From assembly GCA_025526935.1 (NCBI GenBank), contig JAHLKD010000099.1, positions 62,001 to 126,000 of the forward strand: a stretch of 64,000 nucleotides of DNA. The letters are read 5' to 3'. Numbering within the stretch: the stretch's first letter is position 1; every line of letters starts with the position of its first letter. Both the position numbers and the translations under genes were made by a program. Below, in pieces: positions 9,703 through 40,537 of the stretch. Source of the stretch: Cladochytrium replicatum (lineage: Eukaryota; Chytridiomycota; Chytridiomycetes; Cladochytriales; Cladochytriaceae). The notes beneath the pieces are model-generated. The model saw nothing but the letters and a program-made list of their open reading frames with translations, made no database searches and was not told the DNA's origin.

Positions 9703-10637
9703 ATGGCTACATTGAAGTTGGTGCCAAGGGCTGTCGCAGTGGCGACGTCGTTGAAGAACCCCGCCGTTGGAGTCATTAAGACATACGGGGGCCACGGCCA
9801 TGGCCATGCGTCTGCTCCATCCAACACCAAGGCTGTGCTGTCGAACATGCAGGCGAAACTCACTACGACCTTTGCTGGTGGTAAGACCGAACGCTCAATA
9901 TTTTACCCAGCTTTGTAACTCAGTCGATGGGGTCCGTAGGGAATAAGAGCGCGGTGGTGCAGCGACGCTTCTACGCTTCCCCTCCACCAGCTTACGTAGG
10001 CGGCCCTGACTCTGACCCGACCACTCCGCCGGACACGAGCTTCTACCAGGCCCCACCTGCCTCGTACGACACCACCACCGCCAGGACCTTCTCATACTTT
10101 ATGGTCGGCTCGCTCTTGACTGTCACTTCGGTCGGAATGAAGAACTTCATCACGGACTACGTCGTTACCCTCTCTGCTTCTGCTGATGTGTTGGCCATGG
10201 CCAAGGTCGAAGTTGACATTTCTACCATCCCCGAGGGCAAGAACGTCATTGTTAAATGGCGTGGAAAGCCCGTGATGATTCGTCACCGCACTGCTGCTGA
10301 GATCGAGGAGGCGAACAGCGTCAACTTGGCTGAGTTGAGACATCCCGAGACCGATGCCGAACGCACAAAGAACCCTGAGTGGTTGGTCATGTTGGGCGTG
10401 TGCACGCACTTGGGTTGTGTCCCAATTGGAGAGGGTGTGTATTGTCCGAGATCAGTGTCTGAGGGAATGGTTTTCTCACGATTATTTTATCCAGCGGGCG
10501 ACTATGGTGGATGGTTCTGCCCGTGCCACGGTTCGCACTACGACATTTCGGGCCGCATTCGCAAGGGTCCTGCTCCTCTTAACCTCGAGATTCCTGAATA
10601 CACCTTCAACGACGATGGGAAGTTGGTGGTTGGATAG
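9703..10637 (+). CDS. RIP1: Ubiquinol-cytochrome c reductase Rieske iron-sulfur subunit
   Basis: There are three exons, 9703-9880, 9940-10434 and 10495-10637, giving about 271 aa. The N-terminal ~55 residues are Ala/Lys-rich with few acids, a mitochondrial presequence. A mature-type start ([10 protein letters not shown]) is followed by the membrane anchor [16 protein letters not shown] and the flexible hinge region. The 2Fe-2S ligands are CTHLGC in exon 2 and CPCHGSHYD in exon 3; an intron separates them. The protein carries electrons from ubiquinol to cytochrome c1 in complex III of the inner mitochondrial membrane. The intron-1 acceptor at 9939 was chosen because it alone keeps phase; the nearer CAG at 9921-9923 runs into a stop. 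Intron 2 is 60 nt, divisible by three and stop-free. Confidence 0.95.
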
Positions 10638-11676: not shown

Positions 11677-11984
11677 CAAGCTGGAAAGAACGCGCACAGT
11701 CAAAGTCAAAATGTGTAAACGAGTGCGGAGATCACCATGTATGGCAGCAAAGCCGAAATGGCCCAGATATGGAATGGTTGTTGAACTTCTAATATACAGT
11801 TGCATAACAGAAAAACGAAACAGAAATTGCATTCGATGTTCAGTTACATCCACCGCCTTTCGTGCAGCCGTTGAAACAACCAGTGGACACCCACGCACCA
11901 TTGTCGCAATAGGGAATTGTGATGAGCGAAGTAGTTGTTGACGGACAAGCCTATACAACAAGGAAAGAACATGTCAGCAGTAGT

Positions 11985-13222
11985 TCACTTGCCTTCGCAA
12001 ACGCTTGGACCTACCCCAGCCCCTGAGTTTGAACAGGGACAAATATTGTCACCCGCTAAATTTTTGGGTCTTCCAGGGGAACCTTTGCCGTTGCTGCACT
12101 TTTGCTGAATGCCAAGGGCGGAGGCCGCTCCCTTAACGCCGAGACATCCTGCAGACATTTCTGTCCACCTGAAGTTGGTGCACTCGAAAAGTCGGTTGTT
12201 GAAACACCAATAGTTAAGGTCGCTGCACGAGGTTCCATCTATGTCGCTCCCCCCTCCGTTGTTTCCTCCGCTACTTCCTCCGCTGTTTCCTCCGCTATTT
12301 CCTCCGCTACCGCCCCCGGTGGTACTCCCGCTGGTACTGCTGCTGTTGTTGCTTGAGCTTGACAGCAGTTTAGGGACGAACAACGCCAAGACGATCCCAA
12401 GAATGAGAAGTATCGCAGCGACTCCAATGAAAATCATCACGCGACGGCTGATCTTAAAGCTCTTTCCCTTCTTGCGAGCGGCTTGCGGACCGCTGGTTCG
12501 GAACTGGGGACGCCAGTGACCCTCACGAATCTCAGGCCTGATCTGGCCAATGATACTGCTCATAGCCCGGTCGAACTCACCGGAATGGTTCGGGTGGTAC
12601 ATTGCAGTAACTAAAACCGAAGCAAGGTTACAAAGCAATCAAAACTTTATAATACCATTTCAGACTCACAGATGTTGCTTTCGACACCAACAGCGATATC
12701 CGCATAACCAGGTGCATTCCTCAGCTCCTTGAAAGGATCGACCAGCGCAATGGGGAATATGACCTTGTTGTTTTGCTTTGCGTAGCGGAACTCAAACTTG
12801 CAGTTATCCGACGAGCAATAGTCTCTGCTGAGGACCGGAACCACGATCTTTGAGTTGTCGATTGCCCACCGCATCCTGGAGAGCAAGTCTCCTCGCATGT
12901 TTCCACCTTCGGTGTCTCGCCAGACTTTGAACCCGACCTGCTTGAAGCGGTCGGAGATCCGTTCAACAACTGCCGAGTCTGTATGGCGATATGACAAGAA
13001 TATATCGAACCAATCGTCGGAGTCCAAGTTGGCCGAAGATGATCCAGCAGCCTTGTCAAAGGGAGTTCGTCCAGGCGTGTATGGTGGGTGAGTTGGAGAC
13101 GCGTAGTTGGGCTGTACAGGGTATGCTGAAAACGTTCGCTCAAGCGACATCCCATTGTGGGCTTCAGGCGGTGATTGAGGTCCGTACATTATTGTCCGGT
13201 GAGCCGAGAGGAGTGTGCGCAA
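11985..13222 (-). CDS. TIR-domain single-pass membrane protein with Cys-rich ectodomain
   Basis: There are two exons, 13222-12670 and 12610-11985, with a 59-nt intron (12611-12669), giving about 392 aa from the first ATG; later in-frame ATGs at residues 12 and 25 are possible. Residues 1-68 are Pro/Tyr/Ser-rich. A TIR domain follows (about 71-180): WFDIFLSYRHTD (box 1), VWRDTEGGNMRGDLL, SKIVVPVLSRDYCSSDNCKFEF and KVIFPIAL. The Glu after the conserved Cys in NCKFEF sits where NAD-cleaving TIRs have their catalytic Glu. Next come YHPNHSGEFDRAM, a basic patch (ARKKGKSFKISRR), one hydrophobic span (about 242-263), a Ser/Gly linker and an eight-Cys domain (about 308-392) ending NICPCSNSG. The basic patch before the span predicts a cytosolic TIR and an outside Cys domain (type II). 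TIR domains signal by assembly and/or NAD cleavage. The ligand is unknown. Confidence 0.82.
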
Positions 13223-13589
13223 TAAATATTTCGAAAAATTTTCCGTTCTTTTGTGGCTGTATTATCTCCAGAAAGGTATAAACAGGGCTCATGTGTTGCA
13301 CACTCCTTTTTTCGAACGCGTTTGTGAGGAAGATCGCTCAGCTCAATCTGCGGAAAACACCAACAACATCTCGGCAATTTTTGTATGAACATGTGCTCAG
13401 TTGCATCCACCATCTTTCGTGCAGCCTTGAAACAAGCTGTGGACACCCAAGTACCATTGTCGCAGTATGGAATTGTGGAGCGTAGAAGTTCAGGAAGGAC
13501 CCACCTAAAGGTGCGAAAAATGAGGGGGGCAAATTCAGCAACGGGATTCCAAACAAAGGAAATGAATGGTTGCGTACCCTAGTTCCAGA

Positions 13590-14777
13590 GTTTGAGCAGG
13601 GACAGATATTGTCACCGGCTAGATTTTCGGTCTTCCCGGTGTACCTTTCCCGTTGTTGCACTTTTGCTGAATGCCAAGGCCGGAAACAGCTCCTGCAACG
13701 CCGAGACAACCTGCAGGCATTTCGGTCCACTTGAAGTTGGTGCATTGGAAGAGTCGGTTGTTGAAACACCAATAGTCAAGGTCAGTGCACGAGGTTCCAT
13801 CTATATCGCCCCTTCACTGTTGCCTCCACTGTTCCCTCCGCTGCTTCCTCCGCTACTGCCCCCGCTATTGCTGCTGCTTTTGTTGCCACCTGCCACAAGC
13901 TTGTAATGAAGACACCAAGGACGATAGCGAGGATTACGAGCACAACAACGACCGCGATGATGATCAGCGTTCGCCTGCTCAGCTTGGAGCTTTCCTTCTT
14001 CTTTGGGCGGCCATTAGCAGCTCCCATTGTTCCGTTGGCCCGATATTGGGGACGCCGGCCATCACGAATCTCAGGACCGATCTAGCCAACGATGCCACTC
14101 ATAGATTTTTCGAAATCTGCGGGGTGGTTCGGGTGGTACATTTCAGTGACTAAGAAAGAAAAATCAGTAAGTGCGAAGAAAATGAAGCAAAGTTAAGACA
14201 TACAAATGTTGCTTTCGATACCAACAGCGATGTCCGCATAGCCTGGTGGATTCCTCAGCTCCTTGAAAGGATCGGCGAGCGCGATGGGGAAGATTACCTT
14301 GTTGTTCTGCATCGCGTAAACAAATTCGAACTTGCAGTTATCTGACGAGCAGTACTCCTTGCTGATGATGGGAACGACAATCTTCGAGTTTGTCGATTGC
14401 CATCGCATCCTTGAAAGCAAGTCTCCACGCATGTTGCCACCTTCCATATCGCGCCAAACATTGAGCCTAGCCTGCTTGAAACGGTCCGGGATTCGCTCTA
14501 CCGCTCTCGCATCCGTGTGACGATATGAAAGGAAAATGTCGAACCAGTCGTCAGGGCTCAAGTTGGCAGTGGTTGATTGTTGATTGGTGTCATACGCAGT
14601 TTGCCCGGGCATGTATGGCGGGTAACTTTGGGATGAATAGTTTGGCTTGCACAGGTTACGCTGAAACTGGTTGCTCATAGGTGGCCTCGATGGTGACCTT
14701 GTAACCTGGCCTGGTATGACCTTCGGGAGGAAATTGTGGTTCAGTGTACATCGTCTGGTGTGACTTTTGTGGCTCAC
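13590..14777 (-). pseudogene. Broken tandem copy of the TIR/TM/Cys-rich gene
   Basis: Exon 1 (14777-14204) is intact and encodes a full TIR domain: WFDIFLSYRHTD, NMRGDLLSRMRW, SKIVVPIISKEYCSSDNCKFEF. The 54-nt intron (14150-14203) sits at the same place and phase as in the sister gene. Exon 2 is damaged. A TAG at 14082-14084 replaces the Gln of IIGQIRPEI. The frame shifts after the membrane span (LIIIAVVVVLVILAIVLGV), again at the end of the Gly/Ser linker before DGTSC, and again after GRPK, beyond which NLAGDNICPCSNSG continues in another frame. A soluble TIR plus short tail could still be made from exon 1 up to the stop, so residual function as a free TIR is possible. Confidence 0.78.
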
Positions 14778-15086
14778 AGCCGAGTCCAGCTTTCTGCTTG
14801 GCAGATAAAGTTTTCGGGTTCCAAATTTACTAAATACATGGGGATCGGAAAATCAATCGAATTTCATGGTGCAGATGTGATACAGCTCACACTGGACAAC
14901 GGCTACTCTGCTGCAATGTAGCTGTATGTGGCTCATAGAGGCTCGTTCCGCAGGTGATAGTTGGCGCTGTATCCTGATTAAACTTTGGTGTCTAGGAAGT
15001 AAATTCTCACCACAGCCCGACTAAATTTTTCTCTTTCTACACCAGTATAGCAGTTTAGCGTTGATCGTGTACGCTGCCAGGTTGGT
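14778..15086. other. Divergent intergenic region
   Basis: About 310 bp separates the broken TIR gene (leftward) from the TIR-less gene (rightward) and probably contains both promoters. I see no recognisable regulatory motif. Confidence 0.4.
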
Positions 15087-15686
15087 ATGAGGATCAGCAA
15101 ATGGCATTTGGTGGCATTAGAATTTTCGGTGTTAACTTGCTTTGTTAATCCAAAACAGCCCAACCGGATTTTGACGTCCTGCTCCTTCGTTGTGCTTGCA
15201 ATCGCTGGAGGAGTGGCATACGCTGTCGTATCCAGCATAAAGAAAGCAAGCAATGACCCGAGCGGTGCTAATGGGAACACGATCACCACACAAACCGGAC
15301 GTGCAGTCAGCACAAATACACCGACGAGATCTGCAACTTCGATAACGTCCACTACAGCGACGACGACGACGACGATTGCGCCAGCTGCATCGCCAGCTGT
15401 TCCAGGCACGGTTGTTCCAGGCGGTACGTGCACTTTTGGTGACCTGTTCGGTAGCGTCCTGTCCGATTGCGCACAGGGATCCAAGTGGACAGCGGCCGCG
15501 GGAGGGTGCACTTCGTTCCCAACAAGTCCTGCCATTGCAAACCTGGGCTTTACTATACGGTGTACAATCAACGGCACAGTTTCTGATACATCTCCGCCCT
15601 TAACTGGAGGGAACGGTGGACAGCTCAATTTCTGTCCTTGCACTAACAAAGGAGCACGGGTGAGACCGAGTTGTGTCAAAAGTTAA
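15087..15686 (+). CDS. Single-pass membrane protein with a related Cys-rich ectodomain, no TIR
   Basis: The frame gives up to 199 aa. The first part may contain a 48-nt in-frame intron (GTGGCATTAG...AAACAG, 15111-15158), since its removal leaves a short N-terminus directly before the membrane span ILTSCSFVVLAIAGGVAYAVV. A Thr/Ser-rich linker (about 65-125) leads to a seven-Cys domain: GGTCTFGDLFGSVLSDC, SKWTAAAGGC, FTIRCTING, and the end NFCPCTNKGARVRPSC. This tracks the ectodomain of the neighbouring TIR genes (W and GC spacing, C-x-NG, NxCPCxNxGAxVxPS). It could be a partner or decoy for the TIR protein, a role inferred only from proximity and likeness. N-in orientation is less clear here because positive residues lie on both sides of the span. 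Confidence 0.6.
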   Translation: MRISKWHLVALEFSVLTCFVNPKQPNRILTSCSFVVLAIAGGVAYAVVSSIKKASNDPSGANGNTITTQTGRAVSTNTPTRSATSITSTTATTTTTIAPAASPAVPGTVVPGGTCTFGDLFGSVLSDCAQGSKWTAAAGGCTSFPTSPAIANLGFTIRCTINGTVSDTSPPLTGGNGGQLNFCPCTNKGARVRPSCVKS

Positions 15687-16072
15687 CAGAGGCTGATCGA
15701 GGTTGGATGTCTTCTCGACAGTTTTGTAGTCAACCTTTCCCAAGCACTCTCGAAGTGTGCGATTCCACTGGAACATGGGTCCGAAGCTCATGCCCTGTGC
15801 GGTTTGTAATACAGCCACGAATTCATGTGCATATATTGTTTTCTTTTTAGCTAGTTCTCTTCATTCAAAACTTTTCATCAAGAATAATGAGGCAAGAGAT
15901 TTTCCTGTAATTAGTTTGGGCTACATTCTGAACACGATTCAGAGATTGCTGCTCGCTTTGTCGTTGTGGAATGATCTGCCCCTCAAGTTCATCATCCGCC
16001 CCAAATTATTCGCCTCCTAGTTCTCTTACACGAAGTGTGAAGTGTGAGGTTCCAGACCTGTTGTCCCGATAA
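15687..16072. other. Intergenic, nothing recognised
   Basis: There is no gene or repeat that I can support; an 87-codon ORF here has no motif. Confidence 0.4.
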
Positions 16073-37654: not shown

Positions 37655-37731
37655 AGGAGGATGTCTTCATGACCAATAGTTAGAAATGCGTGCCAGAGCA
37701 CTTCTTTTTTTTTACAGCCCACTAACTTTCA

Positions 37732-40537
37732 TTGGTTGTCCCAGCTTCTTCTTCAGCTCGTCGCCCAACTTTTCGTTCCCACTTAGGGAGTTCAATTATT
37801 GATTTGTTTTTTGCTTCTACTTATGTGACAGCTTCCTCTTATTTAGTGCATGATCAACCCCAGTCTATGGCTCCCCATCCTTCAGACCATTTTGCAGTGA
37901 CCTGTTCATTTTCTTTAGCTGGCCCAGATCCTCAGGCCACTGTGCCTCCTCCTCTACCTTCTTGGAATCTCCCATTGTTAAAGGATGAAGTTATTCGTAA
38001 GTCGCACAGAGAAACTGCTAAGATTCTGCTTCCTCCAACATCAGAGGCGCTAACAGCAGCATTGGAACCACTTCAGGTCCCTGTGGGGACTTCTCTTTCT
38101 CGTGCAGTGGCCCAGGGAGCAATTGATTCCGCATTTGAAATTATAGTTGATTTTGTTGCGGCAGCAGCAGTTCTGACATTAGGACCACCAACACCTCGTC
38201 GTAGAGCACCAGCGACCACTCCTTTGCCCCCTGAGATTGCTCTGTTGCGTAGTAAGGCTCGTTCAGCATTCCGTGACTATTATTCCCTATTTCACCACAA
38301 TTCTTCTGACCCTCTTCTCCCTTTTCTAAGAACTCGCCAACGTGATAGTCACAAAGCATTCAAATCAGCTCTGAGATCACACAGGAGTAAGACAAAAGCC
38401 AATTTTTTTGATGACCCTAGTTCTTCATCAGTGCCTTCTCTTCTGAAACATGTGTCTCATGCTTGGCGCTGTGCTAACTTTCGTACTTCAGCTAATGGTT
38501 TAGATTTTGATCCTCAGTCTTTAGCCAAATATTCTGATCATTTTGCTAGTGTCTACAATGCTCAAGCTGCTGACCCAGTTTCACCTTCAATTGTTCTGTG
38601 TGATTTTCAGCTGCCATTGGATGTTGAAGCTTTTGTTCTAGCTATTAGGGACTGCCCTTTGGAGTCTGCCCCGGGTCATGATCGTCTGCCTGCAGAACTT
38701 TATCGCCCAATTTCAGCTATTCTTGCTCCATTGTTCTTGCAACTTTCTCAGTCCATTTTTCGCAGTGGTCTTACACCCACTTCATGGAATCTTGGGCTTT
38801 TGCACCCAGTTTGGAAGCAACGTGGTACGCTTGGTGATATTACTAATTATCGCCCCATTACTCTTTCGTGTGTTGCCCGAAAAAATTTTGAGCGAGCTTT
38901 GTTGCCACATCTTTATTCTGCTATCACGTCTCAACGCCCACTTGATGCTGCCCAAGCGGGATTTCAGTCACACCGCTCGGGAATGGAATGTGTTTTTGGT
39001 CTTCAGGCATGTATCTCCCGTGCGTCTAATGCCAAGGTTCCTTGGGTTGCTGGTTTTTTAGATATTCAAGCAGCTTATGACACCACAAATCGTGCAATTC
39101 TTTGGGCTGAGCTTCTTTCTAGGGGAGTACCGTTGCCATTTGTTTTTGTTTTGAAGTCTCTGTTTGATTTTTTGTTCTTCCAGAGTGGTTGTTGCAAATT
39201 GTTTTTCAGATGCTTTTGATTTGTTTAGAGGTTTGTTTCAAGGTTCTGTTCTCAGTCCACTTCTCTATATCACTTTTCTTGATCCTCTACCTGGGCTCCT
39301 CCGACCATTTGCCCCACCTATAACACTCTTTCATCCTGCCAAACCACGATATAATTCTTTTTTATTTGCAGATGATTTGGCCTTGTTTGCAATTACTTTG
39401 GATGCTATGCAGGTTCTTCTCTCTGTTTGTGACCAGTTTGCCCAAGCTCGTGGTTTTTCTTTTGCTCCTTTGAAGTCTGTGATTCTCACAAAAATTCCTA
39501 TTCCTGCTCATTCGCCTTTGCTTCTTCATGGTCAAACTCTGCCTGTCAAGCCTTCATTTCGTTATCTGGGTTGCTTTTTTGGAGATACTGGATTTGATGT
39601 TTCACTGACTATTTCCCATCGACTTGCCAAAGCGCGCGCAGCTTCTTTTGCTTTGCTTTCTTTTTCAAGGATGTTTGGTTCTCATTCTCTGGTTGTGGTT
39701 CGTCATTTGTTTTTGTCTTTTATTCGACCTACGCTTGAATTTGGTTTATATTTTATTCTTCCCTCTGTTGCTGTTTGCAAACCAGTTCGGACTTTTATTC
39801 ACCAATGTTTGTGTCGATTTCTTCGCCTTTCATTTTCCACTTCAATTGCTGGGGTTTTACTGTTTTTTAAGTTTCCTGACCTTCAGTTTTGGCTTCAATA
39901 TCTGCAGTTTCAGATGTTTCAACGTTGGGTGGATGATGATGCCCCTGATATGGTTCACTCTATGTTGTCATTCTTTCTTCACCAGGGAAAGCACTTTCGT
40001 TGTTCTCCTGTCCCTTTCAACAATCACTTCCTCTTCCCGGCTGCAAATGTTGTAGTTCCCAAACCTTCTGATGTTATCGCAAATCACTTTAACCAAGTAG
40101 CCTCATCTGCCTATGGTTCTATAGCTGCTAGCTTTGCTCCCCTTGCATCTGCACACCCTCATGCGCTAGCAATTGCTCCTCCATGCTTCCCTATTTCGTC
40201 AATCTTGAGGCTTCTGCAGTATCGCCTTGGACGTTTGTTTTATCACCTCCGCAAGCAGTGTTGTCACTGCCACACTGCAACTCTCTCTAGATCTCATGTT
40301 TCAGAATGTTTGCGTCTTGACCTATTGTTGCCTCCTGTTCCTGTTCCTGTTTTACAACTTCCGCTTGACGTTGCAATTGATAGCCTTCGTCCACTTCGCA
40401 TTGTCAACCCAGCGAATCTTGCACCGTGGTATCTAGTTTTTCGTTGTCTCCATAAGATTTGGCTTCACTGTATGGGTCTGCCATTAGAAGTTTCTCCTCC
40501 AGACTCCCTCTTTGGCCCTGCATTTGTGGATCTTTAA
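37732..40537 (+). pseudogene. LINE ORF2: endonuclease C-terminal remnant and frameshifted reverse transcriptase
   Basis: The first part (37732-39219) starts with only the end of an APE-type endonuclease (GSSIIDLFFAS and HPSDHFAV, the SDH catalytic tail), then RT fingers and palm: SAPGHDRLPAELY, WKQRGTLGDITNYRPITLSC, AQAGFQSHRSGMECVFG and GFLDIQAAYDTTN (first RT Asp). Near 39165-39190, in a T-rich stretch, the frame shifts. The second part (39164-40537) continues with FRGLFQGSVLSPLLY, SFLFADDLALF (catalytic Asp pair), FRYLGCFFGD, a long thumb/connection region, and the C-terminal CCHC. About 200 residues of endonuclease are missing. Confidence 0.85.

Follow-up and report, generated by a model that had tools for sequence, protein, structure and literature searches.

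The question raised by this locus is whether a fungus can carry a membrane receptor built in the order TIR domain, membrane span and Cys-rich exterior, and if so, what such a receptor might do. The window, i.e. the whole stretch of DNA analysed here, is 64,000 nucleotides long (contig C99, positions 62001-126000), and the searches covered the 50.5 Mb genome in its 198 contigs. The first-pass annotation had assigned the gene to a fungus, and two genes elsewhere in the genome agree with this. Consecutive pieces of a fungal-type aminoadipate reductase (TIGR03443) on contig C55 together cover nearly all of the 1390 model positions, with no single piece over the whole-protein cut-off and with matches, also under the cut-off, in 12 of the 14 control prokaryotes. 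A radial spoke protein, found in five pieces on contig C49 and silent in the controls (all of them prokaryotes), points to a flagellum. The host is likely a flagellated fungus, consistent with a chytrid. Elsewhere in the window there are a Rieske iron-sulfur protein of the respiratory chain (9885-10637, plus strand), an ordinary neighbour, and reverse transcriptase pieces in two overlapping frames (37726-40537, plus strand; PF00078), probably from a retroelement.

The gene of interest (gene A) lies on the minus strand, from an ATG start codon at 13189 to 11840. Read from its splice sites and frames, it has three exons that encode 408 aa, separated by introns of 59 bp (GTGAGT..TTTTAG) and 64 bp (GTAGGT..TATAG; 12014-11951). 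The protein runs from a P/Y-rich N-terminus through the TIR domain, a basic patch, one span and a Gly/Ser linker to a C-terminal domain with 12 Cys. Its features are as follows:

12670-13189, minus strand: exon 1, with the P/Y-rich N-terminus and the greater part of the TIR (splice reading and TIR_2 match)
12671-13021, minus strand: exon 1 part of the TIR, residues 57-173, with Cys130-x2-Glu133 (Glu codon 12793-12791)
12015-12610, minus strand: exon 2, end of the TIR, basic patch, membrane span, Gly/Ser linker and the first seven ectodomain Cys
12375-12440, minus strand: predicted single membrane span, residues 231-252 (hydrophobicity and K/R count)
12246-12374, minus strand: Ser/Gly/Asn-rich linker, residues 253-295
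12015-12245, minus strand: exon 2 part of the 12-Cys ectodomain, residues 296-372
11840-11950, minus strand: exon 3, the last five ectodomain Cys and the stop (splice reading; paralogous exon 3 in genes E and D)

All of the parts named at first reading (TIR, basic patch, single span, Gly/Ser linker, Cys-rich C-terminus) were recovered on the minus strand. Two details had to be corrected: the 3' end had been put at 11985, which is a read-through into intron 2 that misses exon 3, and the exterior had been given eight Cys, whereas it has 12 (seven from exon 2 and five from exon 3), the supposed eighth being intronic. Intron 1 interrupts the TIR domain, the end of which sits in exon 2 with the span. 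The exons belong together because paralog E has the same three exons and phases, because a single-exon TIR on contig C124 aligns across the exon 1/2 junction (44 of 138 columns identical), and because the divergent paralog D is also intact. Judged from the sequence, a single protein with the TIR-span-Cys layout is almost certainly real.

Both intact paralogs lie on contig C62. Paralog E (206806-208171) encodes 407 aa, and paralog D (206386-205140) encodes 376 aa, each with three exons and intron phases as in gene A. Over 397 codons, comparison of A with E by the Nei-Gojobori method (NG86) gave a dN of 0.149, a dS of 1.12 and a dN/dS of 0.133; by region, dN/dS was 0.039 for the TIR, 0.103 for the ectodomain and 0.31 for the span. 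With dS at 0.7-1.6 per region, near saturation, these ratios are approximate, and they place A and E under purifying selection. In a tree of the TIR domains alone, A grouped with E and B (100/99), and D did not group with A but stood on a long branch beside another TIR locus, L014 (82/85). The kinship of A and D is drawn from the full-length alignment and not from the TIR tree: blastp aligned D with residues 57-401 of A (E = 1.9e-19, 24% identity), and D retains the span, the C-x2-E motif and every one of the 12 Cys.

Two further genes stand beside gene A:

13396-14751, minus strand: gene B, a broken tandem copy with an in-frame TAG in exon 2 near 14082, the pieces of which match A in different frames
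15051-15831, plus strand: gene C, a divergent neighbour with a span, a Ser/Thr-rich stalk and a Cys domain related to that of D

The C-terminal pieces of gene C match D in two frames and keep only part of the Cys domain, and no TIR like that of A or D was found in the window beyond A and B, including upstream of C. Gene C may be decayed, perhaps as a degenerating copy of D, or it may serve as a decoy. The block C (plus), B, A (minus) parallels D, E, F on C62 in order, with blastn matches that are 75-85% identical. C pairs with D, and the best match of B is E; gene order alone suggests F as the counterpart of A, and F matches B about as well. The intact copies are A on C99 and D and E on C62, and F carries stops. 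Duplication and loss are common among recognition genes, and the duplication and loss seen in this cluster fit a recognition role without proving one.

The TIR had been assigned to the cytosol by the positive-inside rule, in a type II layout, and the charge counts bear this out. In the 15 residues flanking the span, gene A has 7 K/R before (N side) and 1 after (C side); the counts are 5 and 1 for E and 2 and 0 for D. Four relatives with an SH3-like domain in place of the TIR (see below) gave 3/1, 4/0, 3/1 and 5/1; their frames were read from the first Met, the Cys exon is missing from that frame in three of the four, and further exons may lie upstream. The N-side excess was found in all seven family members tested. 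A second hydrophobic window reaches a mean of 1.6 in none of the seven, and hence no signal peptide was seen. Gene A has the features of a type II single-span protein: one hydrophobic segment, no visible signal peptide, and K/R of 7 versus 1. We predict an N-inside, C-outside topology for all seven members, although D has only 2 K/R ahead of its span.

We turned to the TIR domain, which extends over about residues 57-202, and to whether it could cleave NAD+. The TIR_2 model matched the 408 aa protein at residues 63-151 (E = 1.2e-18), with 68.2 bits against a curated cut-off of 28, and box 1 and the helix C Glu are present, the Glu also in the aligned rows, as befits a member of the TIR superfamily. 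In the printed HMMER alignment of the gene A TIR with the PDB sequences, Glu133 shares a column with the Glu of flax L6; in that of a profile built from 18 TIRs of this genome, the profile Glu shares one with the Glu of Cat1. The Glu at this position is catalytic in SARM1, L6 and AbTIR. The 18 rows were picked by us from the stronger of 71 genomic matches, with the TIR-NACHT members excluded and one row being a piece of the broken copy B; in all 18, one Tyr and the Glu are invariant. The C-x2-E motif is present in A, E and D alike. The proposal that the Glu occupies the catalytic position of NAD-cleaving TIRs is upheld by these alignments. A Glu at the right place is not proof of catalysis, and NAD+ cleavage by the gene A TIR is a prediction.

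Searched against the PDB sequences, the 18-TIR profile reached 54 distinct sequences at 0.01. Among them were Cat1 (1e-11), a bacterial TIR (1.9e-7), plant Roq1 (4.1e-7), C. elegans tir-1 (1.6e-6), AbTIR (1.4e-5) and SARM1 (3.9e-5). Cat1, Roq1, tir-1, AbTIR and SARM1 are NAD cleavers, in part as judged from the molecule names. TLR and MyD88 chains matched more weakly (0.0011-0.0067). The gene A TIR alone gave 13 matches at E up to 1, all weak: the best was flax L6 (4.5e-4), with AbTIR at 6.3e-4 to 0.0017 and, at 0.01, a TLR chain. We considered, and set aside, a recent origin of the TIR from bacteria or viruses. Peptide-pattern scans, which see close relatives only, gave 31 stretches in bacterial and archaeal genome contigs and one in viral contigs, none confirmed as a TIR relative; plasmids, again at the level of close relatives, gave none at 1e-5. 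An old transfer from bacteria or viruses may be compatible with such scans.

The reading that we prefer, to which we give somewhat better than an even chance, is that of a signalling receptor with an enzymatic TIR. It starts from the layout, constraint, family and catalytic-position Glu, which the gene and its copies establish, and adds a predicted topology, surface location, ligand and catalysis. Gene A would be a type II (N-in, C-out) single-span receptor whose 12-Cys domain faces the cell wall or the medium and binds a polymer of the wall, a foreign surface or that of a partner. The receptors would cluster on binding their ligand; the clustered TIR domains would assemble and, with the Glu at the catalytic position, probably cleave NAD+, either to produce a signal or to deplete NAD+. 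Such a receptor may serve wall sensing or self/non-self sensing.

A receptor of the same topology could instead be non-enzymatic, its TIR only recruiting TIR or adaptor proteins, as animal TLR and MyD88 do, and its Glu being structural. The genome would offer many possible partners among its 71 TIR matches, and the 18-TIR profile does extend to the TLR and MyD88 chains at the weak scores given above. We rate this reading as distinctly less probable, given that the better matches of the profile include TIR NADases rather than TLR or MyD88, that C-x2-E is kept in A, E and D, and that the Glu is kept in every row of the alignment.

In the signalling receptor that we prefer, the ectodomain would be the sensing part; that it has no credible Pfam or PDB relative counts against this reading. 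No family came up in a Pfam scan at E up to 10, known carbohydrate-binding and WSC ectodomains included; few matches above about 0.1 survive the HMMER filters, and a distant relative could escape such a scan. A PDB search gave no hits, and a second one only short matches to NKG2D, none credible. The NKG2D match spans 34 residues, and its score of 0.0018 came from a two-copy fusion, with single stretches at about 1. A CBM19-like reading was also rejected: it arose from a resemblance seen by eye, in which the unit C-x2-G-x-L-x2-C-x(3-5)-W-x(4-6)-C occurs twice, most clearly in the ectodomain at locus L056, and Pfam gave nothing at E up to 10 for gene A and nothing for the L056 ectodomain. Bubble protein, matched by one half of L056 at 0.035, was under the Pfam cut-off, and a viral contig match to 14 ectodomain residues (L059) was treated as chance.

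When three versions of the Cys domain were used as queries, it was located in the clusters on C99 and C62 and also on contigs C13 and C15. On C13 it lies at 184 kb (E = 1.3e-4 from the gene A version), with a second place at 186 kb that is 69% identical to the first; on C15 it lies at 155.9 kb (1.9e-8) and, with the same layout and a score of only 0.16, at 143 kb. The C13 and C15 proteins follow the order of gene A: a cytosolic domain, a span, a Ser/Thr-rich stalk and the Cys domain. L055, one of these proteins, is complete in a single frame and carries 13 Cys after the span rather than 12. SH3_9 matched all five of the pieces scanned, each below the Pfam cut-off: four trimmed segments (L045, L058 and two genes in L056) at 1.8e-4 to 1.7e-3, and the L055 frame at 3.9e-3. 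The untrimmed L045 frame matched no Pfam family at E up to 0.01. At this sub-threshold level the cytosolic domain is SH3-like, and four of the SH3-like frames carry a PPxY motif ahead of the span. Ectodomain alignments of five and eight rows share a Cys-Pro-Cys and other landmarks. The ectodomain is a module carried by both TIR proteins and SH3-like proteins. The loci L045 and L055 (C13, 184-187 kb) and L056 and L058 (C15) seem to make up another class of receptor, whose ectodomain is related. Such relatives, with a similar Cys domain, would probably couple similar ligands to a different output.

An ectodomain of this kind also bears on the idea that the span is a tether in an inner membrane (ER or vacuole), which would restrain a toxic TIR until proteolysis frees it, the Cys domain being lumenal. 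There is a precedent for this in the amoeba TirC, which has an N-terminal helix: in yeast the full-length protein colocalised with a marker of the ER/vacuole, and a version lacking the helix was toxic to amoebae (PMC13142454). Yet the helix of TirC is N-terminal and the available part of that source describes no ectodomain for it, whereas gene A has a conserved 12-Cys ectodomain (dN/dS of 0.10) related to that of the Ser/Thr-stalk proteins, and we consider the tether improbable. That the gene is a prediction artefact or dying, with the TIR and span/Cys exons in different transcripts or a pseudogene like B, draws on the broken state of B and F and on the lack of a TIR found for C, but is very improbable given that A, E and D are open with like three-exon plans and intron phases, that the TIR is completed within the span-bearing exon, and that selection is purifying.

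TIR domains had been called rare in fungi at first reading, which fails for this genome: TIR_2 gave at least 71 matches at E up to 0.001 (counted as matched stretches, not genes), 62 of them marked over the cut-off (six only with neighbours in frame) and nine not. A NACHT-like stretch lies within 1.5 kb downstream on the same strand of 29 of the 71. The 58 NACHT-like stretches were found using one NACHT of this genome (L048) as the query; just 10 matches were obtained at 0.001 with the NACHT model of Pfam. Pfam found NPHP3_N in all four TIR-NACHT loci tested (L048, L034, L026, L029) and WD40 repeats in L048, the latter near-identical by eye. These loci appear to belong to a large TIR-NACHT(NPHP3_N) gene family, with L048 at C61:137500-142500 and others on C61, C63, C80 and further contigs; many of the NACHT-like stretches lie within open frames over 1,000 aa. 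Other TIRs have different companions: long Sel1 arrays follow the TIR in L021, L022, L023 and L024 (by Pfam in L021 and L022, by eye in the others), L022 matching a TPR-S sensor model at 1.1e-7, and a VIT domain lies downstream of the TIR in L013, L015 and L017 (by Pfam in L013 and L017, by eye in L015). EDS1_EP and STALD receive TIR signals in plants and bacteria; neither matched in the genome, and the controls were equally silent.

Tentatively, and with the odds against it, one can imagine an inverted-Toll surface system in which one home-grown Cys-rich ectodomain sits on type II receptors whose inner domain is a TIR (NAD-signalling) in some and SH3-like in others, beside dozens of TIR-NACHT(-WD40) genes. 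The two would then be the arms, one at the surface and one in the cytosol, of a fungal system for immunity or self/non-self recognition built on TIR domains. Both animals and plants rely widely on TIR receptors in their immunity, and fungal TIRs have been reported as almost absent. According to the accessible text of a 2026 preprint, EukProt holds almost no fungal TIRs, the one source being the chytrid Rhizoclosmatium globosum, and the InterPro STIR clan held no fungal sequence on 2025-11-02 (PMC13142454). As excerpted, earlier reports differ: PF01582 was absent from 49 fungi in 2010 (PMC2939053); no NLRs were found in chytrids in 2014, with HET called a distant relative of TIR (PMC4986451); fungi were said to have TIR domains in 2020 (PMC7075850); TIR_2 was named as one of the domains that only certain groups of fungal species have (PMC4102429); and TIR was placed in NLRs of Chytridiomycota in 2022 (PMC9815663), so the TIR-NACHT genes are not wholly new for this group. 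A study of transfers into early-diverging fungi does not use the word TIR (PMC11291939), and the excerpts of two others describe no such fungal receptor (PMC6040629, PMC12881547). Among the matches listed from a mostly open-access literature (e.g. the best 12 of 294), no title or abstract opening described a TIR receptor with the layout of gene A, in line with the first-pass annotation, which had not known the combination from described families. The TIR-span-Cys order is not known from any described family; fungal TIR-NLRs are already in print. The locus provides a concrete gene set for testing TIR-based immunity or allorecognition in zoosporic fungi, and the question of whether fungi sense microbes at their surface becomes directly testable.

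Several known systems resemble parts of what we describe. The TIR-NACHT-WD40 genes, which are separate from the gene A receptor, share an N-terminal TIR-like domain, NACHT and WD40 with HNWD and other fungal NLRs (HET-NACHT-WD40) and, unlike HNWD, have a domain that matches TIR_2. SARM1 has a related TIR, and neither ARM nor SAM is among the five Pfam families listed for gene A. The fungal wall sensors of the WSC/Mid2 type likewise combine a Cys-rich or Ser/Thr-rich exterior with one span and a linker or stalk; they are type I proteins with a signal peptide and without a TIR, and the Pfam scans of gene A gave no WSC match. The amoeba TirC pairs a TIR with one hydrophobic helix in a eukaryote that is neither animal nor plant, but, in the portion of the preprint available, its helix precedes the TIR, no ectodomain is described and its TIR is of recent bacterial origin (PMC13142454). 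Similar in overall plan are the animal Toll/TLR and IL-1 receptors, with a single span, a cytosolic TIR and an extracellular sensor. In gene A the order is reversed (TIR at about 57-202 ahead of the span at 231-252), the protein is type II by prediction with no signal peptide seen, no LRR is among the five families listed for its 408 aa at E up to 10, and the profile of 18 TIRs matches plant, bacterial and SARM1-type TIRs better than TLR and MyD88. If gene A is indeed a surface receptor, this would suggest a separate origin of membrane TIR sensing outside animals, with opposite polarity and a new ectodomain.
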